Assembly: GCF_009827325.1 (NCBI RefSeq)
Contig: NZ_WTYC01000002.1
Location: 372,001 to 436,000, forward strand
DNA length: 64,000 nt
Source: Qipengyuania vulgaris
GTDB lineage: Bacteria > Pseudomonadota > Alphaproteobacteria > Sphingomonadales > Sphingomonadaceae
Direction: 5' to 3'
Positions 3,701 through 57,851 of the stretch are shown here, one piece after another. Under the pieces are notes generated by a model. The model worked only from the letters and a program-made list of their open reading frames with translations. It was not told where the DNA came from and did not search any database. How positions within the stretch are numbered: the first letter of the stretch is position 1; each line of letters begins with the position of its first letter. Position numbers and translations under genes: made by a program.

Positions 3701-4795
3701 ATGACCTCGCATCCCGCCCCGCCTTTGCCTGGAGATTATGCACCTTGGTTCCACGCCAAGGCGTTATCGGGTTCCGACCGGTACGCTTTCCATTCGATAG
3801 GCGGACGCCATGTGCTCATGCTGTTTCATGGCACGGCGCGCCAATCCGAAGCCAAGGCTGCTCTGGGTTTGGTGCAGAAACATCGCGAGCTGTTCGATGA
3901 TGAAAACGCCTGCTTTTTCGGCATCACGACCGATCCCACGGACGTCTCCGAAAGGAGAATCGAGCAAAGCCTGCCCGGCGTTCGCCATTTTCTCGATTTC
4001 GACCAGTCGGTAAGCCGGCTTTACGGGGCCTCCGATCGGGATCAGCGTTTGAAACCCTTCTGGATACTGCTCGATCGCGAATTGCGGATTATTGGTCGCT
4101 ACCCATTGGATAAGGGTATTGAGGCGATTGCCGAACTGAAGCGTAGGACCAAGGACGTGGTCGATCGCTGGGCGCCCGTACTAACCGTTCCGGACGTTTT
4201 CGACGAAACGATCTGCAAGCACCTGATCTCTCTTTACGAACGCGACGGCGGCACGCCTTCTGGCTTCATGCGCGACGTGAAGGGGATGACCACGCACATT
4301 CTCGACGATGACTTCAAGCAGCGCCGCGATACGACCATTGAGGACCCGAAGCTGATCCAGCTGCTTTCACAGCGCATAGCTCGCCGGATCGCACCTGCAA
4401 TCGAGCGTGCTTTCGCCTTCAAGGCCACTCGGATCGAGCGCCACATCGTGGCCTGTTATGAAGCCGGGCGAGGCCACTTCCGCCCACACCGCGACAACAC
4501 GACTTTCGGCACGGCGCATCGCCGCTTTGCGGTGACGATCAACCTCAACGCAGGAGAATATGAAGGAGGTGACCTGCGCTTTCCAGAGTTTGGAGGCCGC
4601 ACCTACCGTGCGCAAACTGGTGGAGCTGTGGTTTTTTCCTGCTCGTTGCTGCACGAGGCAACACCTGTGTCGAAAGGCAAGCGTTACGCTTTTCTTCCGT
4701 TTCTCTACGACGAAGACGCCCGGTCCGTTCGCCAAGCCAATTTCGGCAAGTTGGCAGCGCATACTAAGGAAAACCCGGAGCAAAAATCCGACTGA
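3701..4795 (+). CDS. Peroxiredoxin-like domain fused to 2OG-Fe(II) oxygenase
   Basis: The 364-residue protein has two parts. Residues about 1-150 look like an AhpC/TSA-type redoxin fold (HVLMLFHGT, FFGITTDPTDV, FWILLDREL), but no Cys sits at the usual peroxidatic position. Residues about 165-345 form a prolyl-4-hydroxylase-like double-stranded beta helix with a metal HxD in FRPHRDN, a distal His in SLLHEATPV and a 2OG-binding Arg/Lys in KGKRYAFLPF. I infer an Fe(II)/2-oxoglutarate-dependent hydroxylase with a non-catalytic thioredoxin-like module. Substrate unknown. It starts 40 nt after the epimerase gene. Confidence 0.8.
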   Translation: MTSHPAPPLPGDYAPWFHAKALSGSDRYAFHSIGGRHVLMLFHGTARQSEAKAALGLVQKHRELFDDENACFFGITTDPTDVSERRIEQSLPGVRHFLDFDQSVSRLYGASDRDQRLKPFWILLDRELRIIGRYPLDKGIEAIAELKRRTKDVVDRWAPVLTVPDVFDETICKHLISLYERDGGTPSGFMRDVKGMTTHILDDDFKQRRDTTIEDPKLIQLLSQRIARRIAPAIERAFAFKATRIERHIVACYEAGRGHFRPHRDNTTFGTAHRRFAVTINLNAGEYEGGDLRFPEFGGRTYRAQTGGAVVFSCSLLHEATPVSKGKRYAFLPFLYDEDARSVRQANFGKLAAHTKENPEQKSD

Positions 4796-33012: not shown

Positions 33013-34038
33013 TCAATCGTCGTCGGTGAGACCGTGCTTTTTGATGGCATGGCGCAGCTGGTCGTAGCTGAGGCCCAGCGCCTTGGCCGTCTGGCGCTGG
33101 TTCCAGCGATGCTTGCCGAGCGCATGTTCGAGAATCGCCTTCTCATGCGCATCCACCGCGCTGCGCAGGTCCTCGACAGCGTCGAGATCGGGTGCGGCCG
33201 GTTGGGCCCTAGCCGTGAGAGCTGCGTCGGAACGTTTCCGCGGCGACGGCGGAGAGACGGGCTTCCAGGGGCTCTCGAACGGATCGAACTGGACGTGGCC
33301 GATCGGGTTTTGCCAATCGTCCCACCGATAGACCGCCCGTTCGATCACATTGCGCAATTCGCGGACGTTGCCGGGCCATTGATGATTCTCGAGCTGATCG
33401 GCGACGTGGTCGGAAAAGCCCGGCCAGGCTTCCCAGCCCAGTTCGGCGCCCATGCGGCGGCCGAAATAGTCTGCCAGCACTTCGATATCGCCCTCGCGCA
33501 CGCGCAGCGGCGGCAAAGTGATCACTTCGAAGCTGAGGCGGTCGAGCAGGTCGGCGCGAAACTCGCCGCGCTCTGCCTTGGCGGGCAGGTCCTCATTGGT
33601 GGCGGCGACGATGCGGACATCGACATGGATCGGGCGCGAGGAGCCGATACGCGTTACCTCGCCATATTCCACGGCACGCAGCAGGCGTTCCTGCGCGCCC
33701 ATCGACAGTGTGCCCAGCTCGTCGAGAAACAGCGTGCCTTTGTCGGCTTCTTCGAACCTTCCGGCGCGCTGTCTGGTAGCACCAGTGAATGCCCCGGCCT
33801 CGTGACCGAACAGTTCCGCTTCGATCAGCGTTTCGGGCAAGGCTGCGCAATTCATCGTGACCAGCGGCTCTTCCCATCTGTTGGAAAGACGGTGAAGACG
33901 TTCGGCGATCAGCTCCTTGCCGGTACCGCGCTCGCCGATGACCAACACAGGCCGGCGCATGGGCGCCGCGCGGCTGGTCCGCTCGACCGCATCGAGGAAA
34001 GCTCCCGACTGGCCAATATACTGATTTTCCCGCTCCAT
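33013..34038 (-). CDS. pspF: Sigma-54 activator PspF of the phage-shock operon
   Basis: PspF is an AAA+ bacterial enhancer-binding protein that starts sigma-54 transcription of psp genes; PspA inhibits it until the membrane is stressed. The 341-residue product has no regulatory N-terminal domain, as in known PspF. Motifs are VLVIGERGTGKELIAERL (Walker A), EAGAFTGATRQRAG (sigma-54 contact loop), GTLFLDELG (Walker B) and a C-terminal Fis-like HTH (NQRQTAKALGLSYDQL). Start MERENQYIGQSG at ATG 34038; an in-frame ATG at 34092 would add 18 residues not typical. It is divergent from the psp operon. Confidence 0.96.
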   Translation of the reverse strand: MERENQYIGQSGAFLDAVERTSRAAPMRRPVLVIGERGTGKELIAERLHRLSNRWEEPLVTMNCAALPETLIEAELFGHEAGAFTGATRQRAGRFEEADKGTLFLDELGTLSMGAQERLLRAVEYGEVTRIGSSRPIHVDVRIVAATNEDLPAKAERGEFRADLLDRLSFEVITLPPLRVREGDIEVLADYFGRRMGAELGWEAWPGFSDHVADQLENHQWPGNVRELRNVIERAVYRWDDWQNPIGHVQFDPFESPWKPVSPPSPRKRSDAALTARAQPAAPDLDAVEDLRSAVDAHEKAILEHALGKHRWNQRQTAKALGLSYDQLRHAIKKHGLTDDD

Positions 34039-34137
34039 GACCAAGATATAGGAATTTTCACCAAGGGTTGGCAATAGCCGCCACTGTGCCATTCGTCGAA
34101 AACTTGGAGAATCGCAATTTTCCGCCGGAATCTAAGT

Positions 34138-34153
34138 TTGGCACACCGCTTGC
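34138..34153 (+). promoter_or_regulatory. Sigma-54 promoter of the psp operon
   Basis: TTGGCAC at 34138-34144 and TTGC at 34150-34153 form a -24/-12 element: TGGCAC-N5-TTGC with GG and GC exactly ten bases apart, matching the sigma-54 consensus. A transcription start near 34164 is predicted, about 30 nt before the first ATG. PspF sites should lie upstream between 34039 and 34137. Confidence 0.93.
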
Positions 34154-34194: not shown

Positions 34195-34347
34195 ATGTAC
34201 AACCGCAAGTTCTTCAGCACACAGCTCGGCAAGGCGGCCATTGCCAGCATTGCGATGATGACTGCTTTCGTCGCGCTGAGCTCGCAAATCACGGTCTCTA
34301 CGCCGATGCCGATGGTGGCTTCGATCGGCACCGTGGAAATCGCGTGA
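34195..34347 (+). CDS. Small single-span membrane or exported peptide, first gene of the psp operon
   Basis: ATG at 34195 preceded by AGGGAGG (34184-34190), a strong Shine-Dalgarno. The 50-residue product MYNRKFFSTQLGKAAIASIA... has a basic N-terminus and one hydrophobic segment (residues about 13-32, AAIASIAMMTAFVALSS) followed by a short outside tail. It could be a membrane anchor or a secreted peptide. The stop TGA overlaps a GTG (34344) in the pspA frame. I know no family for it. Its position as the first gene under the sigma-54 promoter makes it a candidate stress-response microprotein. Confidence 0.75.
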   Translation: MYNRKFFSTQLGKAAIASIAMMTAFVALSSQITVSTPMPMVASIGTVEIA

Positions 34348-34556: not shown

Positions 34557-35249
34557 ATGGGAATCTTCAGCCGTACCCGCGATATTATCGCGGCCAATTT
34601 CAATGACCTTCTCGACCAGGCGGACGATCCCCAGAAGATGATCCGCATGATCATCATGGAAATGGAGGAGACGCTGGTCGAAGTTCGTGCCAGCGCCGCG
34701 CGCACCATCGCCGACCAGAAGGAAATGCATCGCCACACTGTGAAGCTGGACAAGCTCCAGGCCGATTGGGGCGAAAAAGCGCAGCTCGCGCTGTCGAAGG
34801 ACCGCGAGGATCTTGCCCGTGCCGCTCTGGTCGAGAAAAAGAAGGCCGTGGACATGGCCGACCAGCTCAAGCAGGAAATTGGGGTGCTCGACGATGCGCT
34901 ACGCGCTTACGAGCAGGACATTCACAAGCTGCAGAACCGCCTGCGCGAAGCCCGCAGCCGCCAGACCGCCATCGCTGCGCGTCTCGAAAGCGCGGAGAAC
35001 CGCGTCAAGCTGCGCAGCCTGATGACCGAAGACCGCGTGGACGATGCGCTGAGCCGCTTCGACCAGCTCGAACGCCGCGTGGACTATGCCGAAGGGCGCG
35101 CCGATGCACTGAGCATTTCGGATAGCTCGGGCAAACCGAACCTGGCGGACGAAATTGCCGCGCTGGAAGGCGCCGACGCGATCGACGACGAACTTGCACA
35201 AATGAAGAAAGCGCTCGGCAAGTCCGAAGACGCCAAAAAAGAGGACTGA
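34557..35249 (+). CDS. pspA: Phage shock protein A
   Basis: PspA is an ESCRT-III-like protein that binds and mends stressed membranes and inhibits PspF. The 230-residue product from the ATG at 34557 begins MGIFSRTRDIIAANFNDLL, the usual amphipathic start helix, followed by DDPQKMIRMIIMEMEETL and long coiled-coil helices (DRVDDALSRFDQLERRVDYA). This start and length are normal for the family. The frame is open for 71 more codons upstream (see separate entry). It is followed by pspB after 3 nt. Confidence 0.95.
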   Translation: MGIFSRTRDIIAANFNDLLDQADDPQKMIRMIIMEMEETLVEVRASAARTIADQKEMHRHTVKLDKLQADWGEKAQLALSKDREDLARAALVEKKKAVDMADQLKQEIGVLDDALRAYEQDIHKLQNRLREARSRQTAIAARLESAENRVKLRSLMTEDRVDDALSRFDQLERRVDYAEGRADALSISDSSGKPNLADEIAALEGADAIDDELAQMKKALGKSEDAKKED

Positions 35250-35252
35250 GCC

Positions 35253-35549
35253 GTGGAAGAAGTATTAGCCATTGTCGCCATCTTCATCGCCTTGCCGTGG
35301 ATCATCCTCCACTACATCACCAAGTGGAAGACCTCGGCCACCATCACCACCGACGACGAAGCCCTGCTCGAGGAACTCTACAACCTCGCCAAGCGGCTCG
35401 ATGAACGAATGGACACGGTCGAGCGCCTCGTCGCTTCCGACAACCCCGACTTCCGTCCCGCCCGCCTCGTCCATGACAGCGAGCAGGACAATCAGCAGCT
35501 GCGCGAACTCGAACAGCTGATCGCCGAGAAAAAAGGAGCCCAACAGTGA
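35253..35549 (+). CDS. pspB: Phage shock protein B, membrane coiled-coil
   Basis: PspB with PspC senses inner-membrane stress and draws PspA off PspF. The 98-residue product (GTG start, AAAGAGGA upstream) has a membrane helix VLAIVAIFIALPWIILHYI near the N-terminus, then WKTSATITTDDEALLEELYN and a coiled coil with RLDERMDTVERLVASDNPDF, the family signature. Longer than E. coli PspB by about 25 residues, with a C-terminal polar extension. The TVERLVASDNP tail is related to the tails of the following small proteins. Its stop overlaps pspC (GTGA). Confidence 0.92.
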   Translation: MEEVLAIVAIFIALPWIILHYITKWKTSATITTDDEALLEELYNLAKRLDERMDTVERLVASDNPDFRPARLVHDSEQDNQQLRELEQLIAEKKGAQQ

Positions 35550-35923
35550 ACAGCCCCCGCACCACCCTTTATCGTGACAAGGCCAATGCGAAGCTGATGG
35601 GCGTGTGCTCCGGCATCGCGGACTACACCGGTGTCGATGCCTTCTGGGTTCGTCTCGGCTTCCTGGGTCTGACTTTCATCACCGGCGGATCGACCATCCC
35701 GTTCTACTTCCTGGCCGGCATCCTGCTGAACAAGAAGCCCGCGCATCTCTATTCGGAACCGGACGAGCACCGTTACTGGCAGCGCGTCCGCCAGAGCCCG
35801 AAGCGCACCGCGCGCGAAATTCGCGCCAAGATGAAGGATGTGGACCGCCGCCTGGCCGATGTCGAAACCTTCTACGTCAGCAGCAATCCGCGCCTGAACG
35901 CCGAAATCGAACGGCTGCGGTAA
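35546..35923 (+). CDS. pspC: Phage shock protein C
   Basis: The 125-residue product starts at GTG 35546 overlapping pspB. The PspC domain is complete: LYRDKANAKLMGVCSGIADY, the membrane segment LGFLGLTFITGG-STIPFYFLAGILL and NKKPAHLY. The C-terminal part (residues about 85-125) is a coiled coil, RAKMKDVDRRLADVETFYVS, then SNPRLNAEIERLR, and matches the tail of PspB and the downstream proteins. It acts in the inner membrane. It is followed by a 25-nt gap and a new Shine-Dalgarno (GGGGGAGG). Confidence 0.93.
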   Translation: MNSPRTTLYRDKANAKLMGVCSGIADYTGVDAFWVRLGFLGLTFITGGSTIPFYFLAGILLNKKPAHLYSEPDEHRYWQRVRQSPKRTAREIRAKMKDVDRRLADVETFYVSSNPRLNAEIERLR

Positions 35924-35948
35924 GCACACCAGAAGGGGGAGGAGAACA

Positions 35949-36257
35949 ATGGAAAACATGGGCATCCTGATACCGATCATCGCGCTGATGATCCCAATTG
36001 TGGCGATCTGGACAAAGCACCAGCAGAAGCTGGCCGAGATGAACGTCCAGACCACTGCACAGGCGACCGCCGAAAAGGCCGCCCAATATGCCAGCCGTGT
36101 GCATGATCTCGAAGACCGCGTTCGGGTGCTTGAGAGGATCGTGACCGACAAGGGGTACGATGTCGCCACCCAGATCGAAGCTTTGCGCGACAATCGCCGG
36201 GTGGACGATCAGGGAGCGGGCGTGCCGCTCGAAATGAAAAAGGGGGAGAGGGCATAA
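35949..36257 (+). CDS. Psp-operon coiled-coil membrane protein 1
   Basis: A 102-residue protein preceded by GGGGGAGGAG. Residues about 5-21 form one membrane helix (ILIPIIALMIPIVAI). Then a polar Gln/Ala helix and the shared tail at residues 54-81: LEDRVRVLERIVTDKGYDV followed by ATQIEALRD. It ends GVPLEMKKGERA, a short tail also seen in the next protein. I know no name for it. It is the first of six related small proteins after pspC. Stop and the next ATG overlap (TAATG). Confidence 0.85.
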   Translation: MENMGILIPIIALMIPIVAIWTKHQQKLAEMNVQTTAQATAEKAAQYASRVHDLEDRVRVLERIVTDKGYDVATQIEALRDNRRVDDQGAGVPLEMKKGERA

Positions 36258-36592
36258 TGGATTTCGGCGACGCGACATTCGTCATCGTACTCATCGGATT
36301 GAGCTATAGCGCGTGGGTAATCAACAACTGGATCCGCGCTAAGAACGGCTATCCGCTGGAAGACGAGTTCGGCGGCAAGACCGAGCGGTCGGACACGGTC
36401 GAAACGAAGGCCCTGCGCCAGGAAAACCGCCAGCTTCACGACAAGCTCGATGCCATGCAGGACCGCATGGTGGTGCTCGAAAAAATCGTGACCGACCGCG
36501 GCTATTCGCTCCACGACGAAATCGAGGCCCTGCGCGACCGCCAGCCCAATAACGGCGTACCGCTCAACGTGAAGTACGGGGAGAAAGCGTAA
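36257..36592 (+). CDS. Psp-operon coiled-coil membrane protein 2
   Basis: A 111-residue protein starting at ATG 36257 inside the previous stop (TAATG). One membrane helix (FVIVLIGLSYSAWVINN) is followed by WIRAKNGYPLEDEFGGK, a block nearly repeated in protein 3. The coiled coil at residues about 54-94 contains AMQDRMVVLEKIVTDRGYS and DEIEALRDRQ; the tail GVPLNVKYGEKA matches the end of protein 1. Function unknown; a membrane-anchored coiled-coil partner of PspA/B/C is inferred from operon and shared motif. The stop overlaps the next start (TAATG). Confidence 0.85.
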   Translation: MDFGDATFVIVLIGLSYSAWVINNWIRAKNGYPLEDEFGGKTERSDTVETKALRQENRQLHDKLDAMQDRMVVLEKIVTDRGYSLHDEIEALRDRQPNNGVPLNVKYGEKA

Positions 36593-36900
36593 TGGAACTG
36601 ATCACCGAAACCACAGTGGTCCTCGGCGTCGTTGCGATGTCGCTGGCCTGGGTCGCCAATACCTGGATCAGGGTCAAGAACGGCTACCCGCTCGAAAACA
36701 GCTGGGGCAAGGCAGTCTATCCCAAGAACGACCAGGCGGTCGAACGGGTTAAACTGCTGACCCAGGAAAATGCCGAACTGCGCGCCGAGCTCGGCTCGCT
36801 CAAGGACCGGCTCGGCAATGTCGAGCGCATCGTGACCGACAGCGGCTATCACCTGACCAGCGAAATCAACCGATTGCGCGACGGCAGGGAGACAAACTGA
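36592..36900 (+). CDS. Psp-operon coiled-coil membrane protein 3
   Basis: A 102-residue paralogue of protein 2: membrane helix VVLGVVAMSLAWVANT, then WIRVKNGYPLENSWGKA (compare WIRAKNGYPLEDEFGGK). The coiled coil spans residues about 48-97 with LKDRLGNVERIVTDSGYHL and SEINRLRDGRE. The tail GVPL block is absent. Start and stop are coupled to neighbours (TAATG upstream, TGATG downstream). Confidence 0.85.
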   Translation: MELITETTVVLGVVAMSLAWVANTWIRVKNGYPLENSWGKAVYPKNDQAVERVKLLTQENAELRAELGSLKDRLGNVERIVTDSGYHLTSEINRLRDGRETN

Positions 36901-37205
36901 TGGACTCCGACCTCATCCTGATTTTCGGCTTCATCCTGCTGACGCTCATGATCGTCATGCCAATGGCCTATCTTTTCCAGAAGCGCGAGGCCGAGCACAA
37001 GGAACGCAAGCTGGAACTCCAGGCACGCGCAGACGAAGCCAAGGCGGAGCAGGCACGCTTTTCCAACGGCGACTACTCCAAGATGGAAGAGCGCGTCCGC
37101 GTGCTCGAACGGATCGCGACGGACGGCAATCATGCCTTGGCCTCGCAGATCGACGAATTGCGCAAGCTCGACCGGATCGAGGATCGCACGGGAGCATCGT
37201 CATGA
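36900..37205 (+). CDS. Psp-operon coiled-coil membrane protein 4
   Basis: A 101-residue protein with an N-terminal membrane helix (LILIFGFILLTLMIVMPMAY), a highly charged helix (KREAEHKERKLELQARADEA) and the shared tail at residues about 62-88: KMEERVRVLERIATDGNHA and SQIDELRKLD. Similar in build to protein 1. Coupled to protein 3 by TGATG and to protein 5 by ATGA. Confidence 0.85.
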   Translation: MDSDLILIFGFILLTLMIVMPMAYLFQKREAEHKERKLELQARADEAKAEQARFSNGDYSKMEERVRVLERIATDGNHALASQIDELRKLDRIEDRTGASS

Positions 37206-37489
37206 GCGCCTGGGCCACTGTCGCAATCATCGCCATCATCGTGTGGGGCGTGGTTCAGCTGAGCAAGGCCCGCCACCGTGCCGACCGCGGCATCGTCGTC
37301 GACGAACGCGGTAACGAAAGCGTCGCGGACAGCGGAACCGATGCCGAGACGAACAGGGAAATCGAGGACTTGCGCGAACGCATCAAGGTGCTCGAGAGAA
37401 TCGCCACCGATGGCAATTCGCTCGACACGCAGGAAACCAAGAGGATAGCCGCTGAAATCGAAGCCCTGCGCGACAAGCGGGCCGAGTGA
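37202..37489 (+). CDS. Psp-operon coiled-coil membrane protein 5
   Basis: A 95-residue protein: short membrane helix (WATVAIIAIIVWGVVQL) directly at the N-terminus, a linker with acidic stretches, then the shared tail at residues about 52-91: EIEDLRERIKVLERIATDGN, with an insertion of about ten residues (SLDTQETKRIA) before AEIEALRDKRAE. Overlaps protein 4 by ATGA. Confidence 0.83.
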   Translation: MSAWATVAIIAIIVWGVVQLSKARHRADRGIVVDERGNESVADSGTDAETNREIEDLRERIKVLERIATDGNSLDTQETKRIAAEIEALRDKRAE

Positions 37490-37521
37490 GGCGGAAACTG
37501 GTTCAAGGAGGACATGGGGAA

Positions 37522-37758
37522 ATGTTCGAACCGACACTGATAGTCGCCGCCGCCAGCCTGACTGGCCTGGTCATCATAGCCGCCGCCATGTTACGCGGAT
37601 GGCAGGGATGGCTGGACCTGAAGCGCAGCGAGCTCGAAGGCCATAGCGGCCCCAGGCAGCAGGAAGGCTCGTCGATGGGTGCCGCCCGGATCGAGCTTGC
37701 CGATCTGAAGGAGCGGATCAAGAAGCTCGAGGCGATCGCCAGCGGGGTTGACCTGTGA
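37522..37758 (+). CDS. Psp-operon coiled-coil membrane protein 6 (truncated tail)
   Basis: Start chosen at ATG 37522 because AAGGAGG stands 10 nt before it; a GTG at 37486 overlapping the prior stop would add 12 residues. The 78-residue product has the membrane helix TLIVAAASLTGLVIIAAAML, a linker, then ELADLKERIKKLEAIASGVDL, the LER motif ending abruptly where the other members continue to LRD. The stop TGA overlaps the next GTG. Either a natural short member or one that lost its end. Confidence 0.75.
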   Translation: MFEPTLIVAAASLTGLVIIAAAMLRGWQGWLDLKRSELEGHSGPRQQEGSSMGAARIELADLKERIKKLEAIASGVDL

Positions 37759-37931
37759 GCAGCCGTACCGGAGACGCTGCACGGGCCGGCATCGGCCTCG
37801 GCAGCGCGATCGCCGTGGCGATTTCCTGGACCCAGAACCAGTCGATCCTGTGGGCCATATTTCACGGCTTCATCAGCTGGATCTATGTGATCTATCATGC
37901 CCTCACCCGGCCCGGCGGCATCACCGGCTAA
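37755..37931 (+). CDS. 58-residue hydrophobic protein at the end of the psp operon
   Basis: GTG at 37755 overlaps the previous stop (GTGA). The product begins MSSRTGDAARAGIGLGSAIA and has two hydrophobic segments, GIGLGSAIAVAISW and ILWAIFHGFISWIYVIYHAL, with a short polar end. The second segment resembles small membrane proteins found in many bacteria. Role unknown; inclusion in the psp transcript is inferred from overlap. The stop at 37929 precedes sufE by 43 nt. Confidence 0.8.
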   Translation: MSSRTGDAARAGIGLGSAIAVAISWTQNQSILWAIFHGFISWIYVIYHALTRPGGITG

Positions 37932-56735: not shown

Positions 56736-57851
56736 TCAGCTTACACGCGAAAAATCGAGATCGCGCGCGGTGAAGATGCGGATCGGTTCTCCCTGGCGGA
56801 CCCGCACGGTCGGCCCGCGTTGCCCGTCCTGCTGGGCTGCCGTGGCTGCTGCTGACTGGCTTGCACCCCCAAGGACGATGCCGCCCGCTCCGCCGGTGGC
56901 CAGCGTTCCCAGTCCGCCGACGACCGAGAGCAACATGGCCGATCCGAAGCGCTTGAAGAACCCGTTGCCGGACACCTCTCCCGCGAGACCCGTCGTGCCA
57001 TCGAACCCGATGGCAGGCGAAGCCAGATTGACCGATGCTCCATCAGGCCGGATCAGCCGGGTCCAGATGACATATGCGCGTTTCTGGCCGTTCTGCATTC
57101 CGGATTGGTATTGACCGATCAGGCGGCTCGAACGCGGGACAAGGACCCGCCTGCCGTCGAAGCTGCGGACATCCTGGCTCACCACGGCGCGGACATAGCC
57201 GGGCACATTGGTATCGATCGCAGTCTCCAGGATTGCCGGGATCAGCGTACCCTGCGTGACCGTAGTCGATGGATTGGTCATCGCCTTGGCCTGCGCAGGA
57301 GCACCGCCAACGCCGCCAACGCGGCTTGCGAAATCGCCAGCAGAATTGCCAGTCGCAGTTTCGGCGCCGCCTTCCGCAGCTTCCATTGCCACACCCTCGG
57401 CCGCCGCTGCTAGCGCGCTGCTGGAATCGAAGACGACAGTTGGATTGTTATAGGGATTGCCCATCGCCTGCGGTTCGGGAGCTGCGGAAAGTACAGGTGC
57501 GGGAGCCGGATCGGCCATTGCGGCCTGCTGCGCCGGGGTCGGGCGTTCGATCGTGACCGCGGGAGGCGCGGCGGGTGTGGCAGCCGGTTGCGCAGCTACT
57601 TGCGGGTTTCCAACGCCCTGCGGTTCCGGGACGCGAGCTGAATCCATGCTCCAGAGCGTCACTGCACCGAGTCCGGCGACGATAGCGATCCCGGCGACCA
57701 TACCCATGGCATCGCCCTTGCCACCCGGCCGCGCAACCGCAGGGAACGCGTTGCGCTGCGCAAGATCGATGATCTCGGCATCGCTATCGTCACGCGGGTC
57801 GGTATCGTTGGCGACCGTGGTGTTTTCCGGGATGCGGTTGGCAAGGCGCAT
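56736..57851 (-). CDS. virB10: VirB10/TrbI, T4SS core channel protein
   Basis: VirB10 spans inner and outer membrane in the T4SS core. The 371-residue product has a cytosolic N-terminus (about 1-48), one membrane helix (MGMVAGIAIVAGLGAVTLW), a Pro-rich periplasmic region (PAATPAAPPAVTIERPTPA) and the conserved TrbI domain (AILETAIDTNVPGYVRAVVS, VLVPRSSRLIGQYQSG). The helical antenna part near FFKRFGSAMLLSVVGGLGTL is present. Its ATG at 57851 shares one base with the virB9 stop (TAATG). Confidence 0.94.
   Translation of the reverse strand: MRLANRIPENTTVANDTDPRDDSDAEIIDLAQRNAFPAVARPGGKGDAMGMVAGIAIVAGLGAVTLWSMDSARVPEPQGVGNPQVAAQPAATPAAPPAVTIERPTPAQQAAMADPAPAPVLSAAPEPQAMGNPYNNPTVVFDSSSALAAAAEGVAMEAAEGGAETATGNSAGDFASRVGGVGGAPAQAKAMTNPSTTVTQGTLIPAILETAIDTNVPGYVRAVVSQDVRSFDGRRVLVPRSSRLIGQYQSGMQNGQKRAYVIWTRLIRPDGASVNLASPAIGFDGTTGLAGEVSGNGFFKRFGSAMLLSVVGGLGTLATGGAGGIVLGGASQSAAATAAQQDGQRGPTVRVRQGEPIRIFTARDLDFSRVS

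Follow-up and report, generated by a model that had tools for sequence, protein, structure and literature searches.

A tandem family of PspB/PspC-related tail proteins in the apparent phage-shock operon of Qipengyuania vulgaris and other Sphingomonadaceae

Organization of the locus

The window analyzed here, a 64,000-nucleotide stretch of Qipengyuania vulgaris contig NZ_WTYC01000002.1 from a genome of 3.23 Mb, contains the phage-shock (psp) genes pspF|pspA-pspB-pspC, downstream of which six tightly packed genes, here termed x1 to x6, occupy positions 35949-37758. Our analysis indicates that these genes form part of a diverged family of small membrane proteins with tails related to those of PspB and PspC, that members of the family follow pspC in every related locus compared, and that they are probably expressed together with the psp genes. 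The open reading frames (ORFs), motifs and coordinates that an earlier note had given for this six-gene array were recovered in our own ORF reading. The principal features are the following (aa, amino acids).

33013-34092, minus strand: pspF-like sigma-54 activator gene, a 359-aa ORF divergent from pspA, named by eye and by its place
34139-34153, plus strand: sigma-54-type promoter pattern TGGCAC-N5-TTGC, a pattern match; a second match in the window lies at 57707
34557-35249, plus strand: pspA (TIGR02977, 278 bits, above the cut-off)
35253-35549, plus strand: pspB (TIGR02976, 93.6 bits, and PF06667, 78.5 bits, both above their cut-offs)
35546-35923, plus strand: pspC (TIGR02978, 120.9 bits, above the cut-off)
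35949-36257, plus strand: x1, 102 aa (array profile, 119.5 bits)
36257-36592, plus strand: x2, 111 aa (array profile, 104 bits)
36592-36900, plus strand: x3, 102 aa (PspC match to TIGR02978; its clade covers 46 loci)
36900-37205, plus strand: x4, 101 aa (array profile, 72.5 bits)
37202-37489, plus strand: x5, 95 aa (array profile, 79 bits)
37522-37758, plus strand: x6, 78 aa from ATG, or 90 aa from GTG 37486 (array profile, 49 bits)

All six proteins share a plan in which a single N-terminal membrane helix is followed by a stalk and then by the tail. The core (L/V)E(R/K)I(V/A)TD is present in x1-x5, and five of the six genes also encode (E/Q)I-x2-LR(D/K), while x6 ends after KLEAIASGVDL. Across 61 related loci, the window included, 278 members for which a start-finding rule yielded a gene were used for the charge, stalk and tree statistics, with about 20 array hits dropped. 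Every one of the 278 has a 17-residue segment above 1.6 on the Kyte-Doolittle scale, and in 271 lysine plus arginine residues are more numerous after the helix than before it, which by charge places the C-terminus inside; x1-x6 have this PspB-like topology. Stalks, measured between helix and motif, have type-specific lengths (medians of 40 to 56 residues), and seven members lack the motif as written. Structure prediction of x1 gave one helix over residues 4-89 at modest confidence (pLDDT 72.7, pTM 0.33), and predicted PspC ends in a helix (85-112), a break and a further helix (115-124).

The genes from pspA through the array have the appearance of a PspF/sigma-54 operon, with an upstream promoter pattern, a common reading direction and short gaps. 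The promoter pattern occurs within 700 nucleotides (nt) upstream of pspA in 42/61 loci and nowhere else on the plus strand in the 446,360 bases of the 61 loci. Among 217 gaps between successive array members, 101 are zero or overlapping, 106 measure 1-60 nt and 10 are longer. In the window stretch, 6 terminator-like hits were counted (mean of 4.8 after shuffling), and none lies on the plus strand between pspA and sufE. The earlier note held that all the genes are joined by overlaps, which is correct for x1/x2 and x2/x3 (TAATG), x3/x4 (TGATG) and x4/x5 (ATGA); however, 25 nt separate the end of pspC from the start of x1, and an overlap of x5 with x6 requires the GTG start at 37486, the ATG at 37522 leaving a gap of 32 nt. 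Its placement of the array within the psp operon is borne out in appearance by the gap sizes, the promoter pattern and the tendency, described below, of array genes to be absent alongside pspA. Read from the sequence, x1-x6 thus probably share a transcript, and a single sigma-54/PspF promoter, with pspA, pspB and pspC, though we acknowledge that the strict promoter pattern is missing from 19/61 loci.

Relationship of the tails to PspB and PspC

Searched against 7025 ORFs of the 61 loci at E 0.1, a profile of the array recovered 294 array ORFs, 58 PspC, 32 PspB and 1 other. At the same threshold it matched none of the 61 PspA proteins, though PspA is itself a coiled coil, and none of 3570 reversed ORFs. 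Because the profile spares both sets of decoys, the resemblance to PspB and PspC exceeds that of a generic coiled coil, which is thereby ruled out as the sole resemblance. When 22 diverse array members were scanned against 18,950 NCBIfam models (E 0.05), the models matched most often were those of PspC (14/22), PspB (7), PspB (6) and PspC (5), the next best being matched by 2. Profile-profile comparison gave 88% for PspC (E 3e-6) and 61% for PspB (E 8e-5), with controls of 2% for PspA, 0.1% for SufE and 2.7% for DUF454. Individually, x1 aligns with PspB (TIGR02976) along residues 1-67 (E 5e-5) and with the PspC tail (E 4e-4), x3 matches PspC (TIGR02978) from the second membrane helix to the C-terminus at E 3e-4, and x4 and x2 match PspC at E 0.005 and 0.017, respectively; x5 matched neither protein in the NCBIfam scan.

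Several results weigh against this relationship. None of x1-x6 reaches a PspB or PspC cut-off in NCBIfam or Pfam, the best of them against the PspB cut-offs being x1 with 23.4 of 51.7 bits (TIGR02976) and 15.1 of 25.6 bits (PF06667), and x6 on its own matches neither protein in scans of either database. In Pfam, bZIP (5/22) and ZapB (4/22) were matched by as many of the 22 members as PspB (4/22), and in a whole-genome search with the 22-row profile the PspC tail (17.3 bits) was outscored by a 210-aa membrane ORF that appears unrelated (18.4 bits). A PDB search returned weak matches, mostly coiled coils, the best at E 0.036. Given the bZIP and ZapB matches and these weak PDB matches, the coiled-coil background is real. 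Taken across the family, the tails nonetheless resemble PspB and PspC more than they do unrelated coiled coils, a broad relationship seen for the family rather than for x6 by itself. We consider the homology of the array family to PspB and PspC well supported by the comparisons of sequences and profiles, though per-protein scores are modest; the claim that the tails are related to those of PspB/PspC beyond a generic coiled coil stands on the profile searches, the NCBIfam scan, the profile-profile comparison and the clean decoys. A phage origin of the array was dropped, as a PHROG search (E 0.001) was empty for all six proteins.

The two known proteins differ from the array in distinct ways. 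PspB (PF06667/TIGR02976) shares with it one N-terminal membrane helix, a cytoplasmic C-terminus and the same operon, and its consensus in these loci, KRLDERMDTVERLVAS, resembles the x1 type LxxRVRVLERIVTD; in contrast, the window members score far under the PspB cut-offs, and the EI-x2-LR part of x1-x5 is absent from PspB here. The PspC tail (TIGR02978, about residues 44-121) likewise has a coiled coil followed by AEIERLR, and the alignments of x1-x4 reach the PspC C-terminus, but array members have a single membrane helix with little before it and lack the PspC domain (PF04024), for which x1-x6 gave no match at E up to 1.

Distribution and divergence

A PspA match was found in 139/149 genomes of the same family, Sphingomonadaceae, and from these 139 genomes 60 loci were picked by hand, 40 with a PspA at least 80% identical to that of the window and 20 more divergent. 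With the window included, one or more array genes follow pspC in 61/61 loci, and 3-8 copies are present in 58/61; by copy number, 1 locus has one, 2 have two, 5 have three, 21 have four, 12 have five, 12 have six, 6 have seven and 2 have eight. At least 80 named loci were also found via x3, and therefore provide no measure of array frequency; those spanning both pspC and sufE (76 of 80 among the matches listed) contain 3 to 8 array genes, and the named loci include Qipengyuania, Erythrobacter, Croceicoccus, Novosphingobium, Sphingomonas, Blastomonas and Sphingorhabdus.

Array-type genes were detected in 90/99 family genomes, comprising 89/92 with a PspA match and 1/7 without (Fisher P 5e-7), the sole PspA-less genome with such a gene being 66% complete. 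Array genes thus tend to be absent where pspA is absent. Two points temper this association, namely that the Fisher test ignores kinship and that one genome counted as having pspA (G065) has a weak PspA-type match, the counts becoming 88/91 and 2/8 by hand if it is moved. Outside the family, 52/73 genomes of the order match, at one or two places each, and in the same draw 26/26 family genomes match. In the class and phylum draws, where part of the first-look candidates were scored, the matches were 10/385 genomes for the class (five from the family, the other five including one pspC tail and two long coiled-coil ORFs) and 28/299 for the phylum, 13 of them from the family.

Within the family, the array copies appear to be old. 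In a FastTree phylogeny of the 278 members, the six window genes fall in separate clades (support 76-94), which are represented in 57 (x6), 46 (x3), 40 (x1), 37 (x5), 29 (x4) and 19 (x2) of the 61 loci, and gene order along the operon is largely conserved, with x5 and x6 usually last. Pairwise comparison of the window and two genus-mates gave dN/dS values of 0.14-0.49 for x1-x6 (0.20-0.49 for x2 in three pairs) versus 0.08-0.27 for pspA, pspB and pspC. By these sequence-based measures the copies are old, distinct paralogues, and the genes look to be under constraint. A process of birth-and-death duplication, leaving largely redundant copies with no special function for each, would account for the differences in copy number among related loci and for local bursts such as the five x1-type genes of one locus (L036). 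However, the wide coverage of the x6, x3, x1 and x5 clades and the dN/dS values of all six genes in the three genomes fit it poorly, and we regard it as very unlikely.

Origin of the array

Closest in sequence to the array are stand-alone, one-helix proteins with an LExIVTD tail from sister families and other classes. They differ in usually occurring as one or two genes per place, and most lie away from psp genes, with three singly ending a psp operon. These three, from sister families (L130, L131 and L134), are arranged as pspF|pspA-pspB-pspC-second short pspC-one array-type gene, with ORFs resembling the window pspF (348-357 aa, by BLAST with that gene as query) divergent to pspA. By eye, x5 is the type most like their single array-type gene. 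The second PspC, located between pspC and the array-type gene, is short and lacks the long tail, and the tail of the array-type gene in these loci may once have belonged to it.

The same three genomes carry a second array-type gene (L129, L132 and L133), at about position 4400 of each locus and directly after putative dnaG-rpoD genes, named by eye. Most of the other order loci fetched have one or two array-type genes and no psp gene within the 9-kb stretch. Other classes of the phylum contributed 16 one-helix proteins from 15 loci, which score 30-71 bits and likewise have no psp gene within 9 kb; this LExIVTD-tail family (L235-L249) occurs at 1-3 places per genome, with a tandem pair in L235. 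Among the order-level loci, 18 array-type proteins score 55-83 bits, with lower values for a neighbor in L143 (16 bits) and for a gene within a psp operon from a different order-level group (L146, 29 bits). Matches in L145 and L148 are long coiled-coil ORFs and were taken as chance.

The earlier note proposed that the PspB/PspC tail had been duplicated into a set of anchors. This is not supported, given the closer similarity of the array genes to the stand-alone proteins of other bacteria, which outscore the PspC and PspB of the array loci themselves (medians of 16 and 14 bits), though two different array profiles were used and the comparison is rough. Local duplication of the pspB or pspC tail was rejected on this ground, the wide score gap (mostly 30-83 bits versus medians of 16 and 14) making a recent local copy an unlikely origin. 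Judging from sequence similarity, an already existing tail family was probably brought together in the psp operon and then multiplied.

The existence of relatives away from psp genes raises the prospect that the tail is a general pairing module of membrane proteins, with partners outside Psp and a place in the operon only for stress co-expression. Such relatives in other families and classes, including those after putative dnaG-rpoD with no pspA in 9 kb, are what this would predict; yet of the seven family genomes that lack a PspA match, six have no array-type genes either, and a search of the whole genome containing the window found no clear array-type gene elsewhere. We consider partners outside Psp improbable.

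Neighboring genes

The gene order in the window is pspF (minus strand), the sigma-54-type site, a 50-aa ORF, pspA, pspB, pspC, x1-x6, x7, sufE and a DUF454 gene. The remaining features of this order are as follows.

34195-34347: short ORF of 50 aa, downstream of the sigma-54 site and upstream of pspA
37755-37931: x7, a 58-aa membrane protein after x6
Downstream of x7: sufE (PF02657 match)
Following sufE: DUF454 gene (PF04304 match)

The end at 37931 adopted in the earlier note also takes in x7, which is matched by neither Pfam nor the array profile. Its sequence reads AGIGLGSAIAVAISW...TRPGG, and a similar protein follows x6 in 11/60 fetched loci. The 50-aa ORF (MYNRKFF..LGKAA.AS) has no match in Pfam, and tblastn at E 1 placed it 305-434 nt upstream of pspA in 29/61 family loci, window included; it is possibly an unnoticed first gene of the psp operon.

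Discussion

The six genes would represent a diverged PspB/PspC-tail family combining one membrane helix and a cytoplasmic C-terminus with a type-specific stalk and a coiled-coil tail. From the computed operon position, homology, charge topology, old separate lineages, constraint and tendency to be absent with pspA, we infer co-transcription, pairing, PspA binding and multi-input sensing, and propose, at an evenly balanced probability, that the array serves as an expanded module for membrane sensing and PspA docking. The PspA docking platform suggested in the earlier note is likewise hypothetical. The Yersinia PspB and PspC proteins assemble into a membrane complex, and the cytoplasmic tail of PspC in the on state binds PspA, freeing PspF (PMC5596341); in Escherichia coli, leucine-zipper mutants of PspC cannot bind PspA (PMC3068692). 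The array would most likely add further, non-identical tails of the PspC kind to this system. These tails may pair among themselves and with PspB and PspC, such that several kinds of membrane disturbance could feed one switch, and after induction the array might allow the membrane to retain more PspA. Tail-tail pairing should not be assumed, since PMC3068692 places the E. coli PspB-PspC contact and PspB self-association in membrane regions, describes the PspB zipper as dispensable for both and proposes two topologies for PspC. A stronger form of the proposal is conceivable but doubtful: in most Sphingomonadaceae the simple PspBC switch would have given way to a combinatorial sensor, a hetero-oligomeric comb built of PspB/C tails, in which each of the old paralogue types pairs selectively with others and responds to its own kind of membrane disturbance.

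The array proteins may instead be effectors rather than sensors, themselves targeting the membrane or mislocated channels in the way that PspBC counter secretins, with copy number tuning capacity. PspBC alone protect Yersinia against mislocalized secretins (PMC5596341), and the range of 1 to 8 copies over the 61 loci fits such tuning; however, distinct old lineages with type-specific stalk lengths exceed the needs of simple dosage. We rate an effector role as tentative and rather unlikely.

PspB duplicates are known to occur in psp operons, for example AOL22920.1 (Ravi et al. 2024, PMC11237479), though in the parts of that work available to us they are mentioned in one clause, with no number, distribution, subtype or function. 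The earlier note's statement that it knew no description of such an array must be qualified by this report, and otherwise agrees with our literature searches, which found no other; no such array was seen in the consulted part of the survey PMC9239133. Psp genes are reported for all strains in a Qipengyuania genome paper (PMC9241875) and are induced in Zymomonas by ethanol, xylose or other stress (PMC3495753, PMC8645129, PMC11186258).

For the still open question of how membrane damage is sensed by PspB and PspC, the three to eight natural tail variants usual in one operon offer a natural collection in which the binding partner of each tail could be mapped. Our findings also expose a wider family of proteins with PspB/C tails, apparently without a name, outside psp operons, and they suggest that in these bacteria the complete sensor comprises more than the textbook pspABC set.

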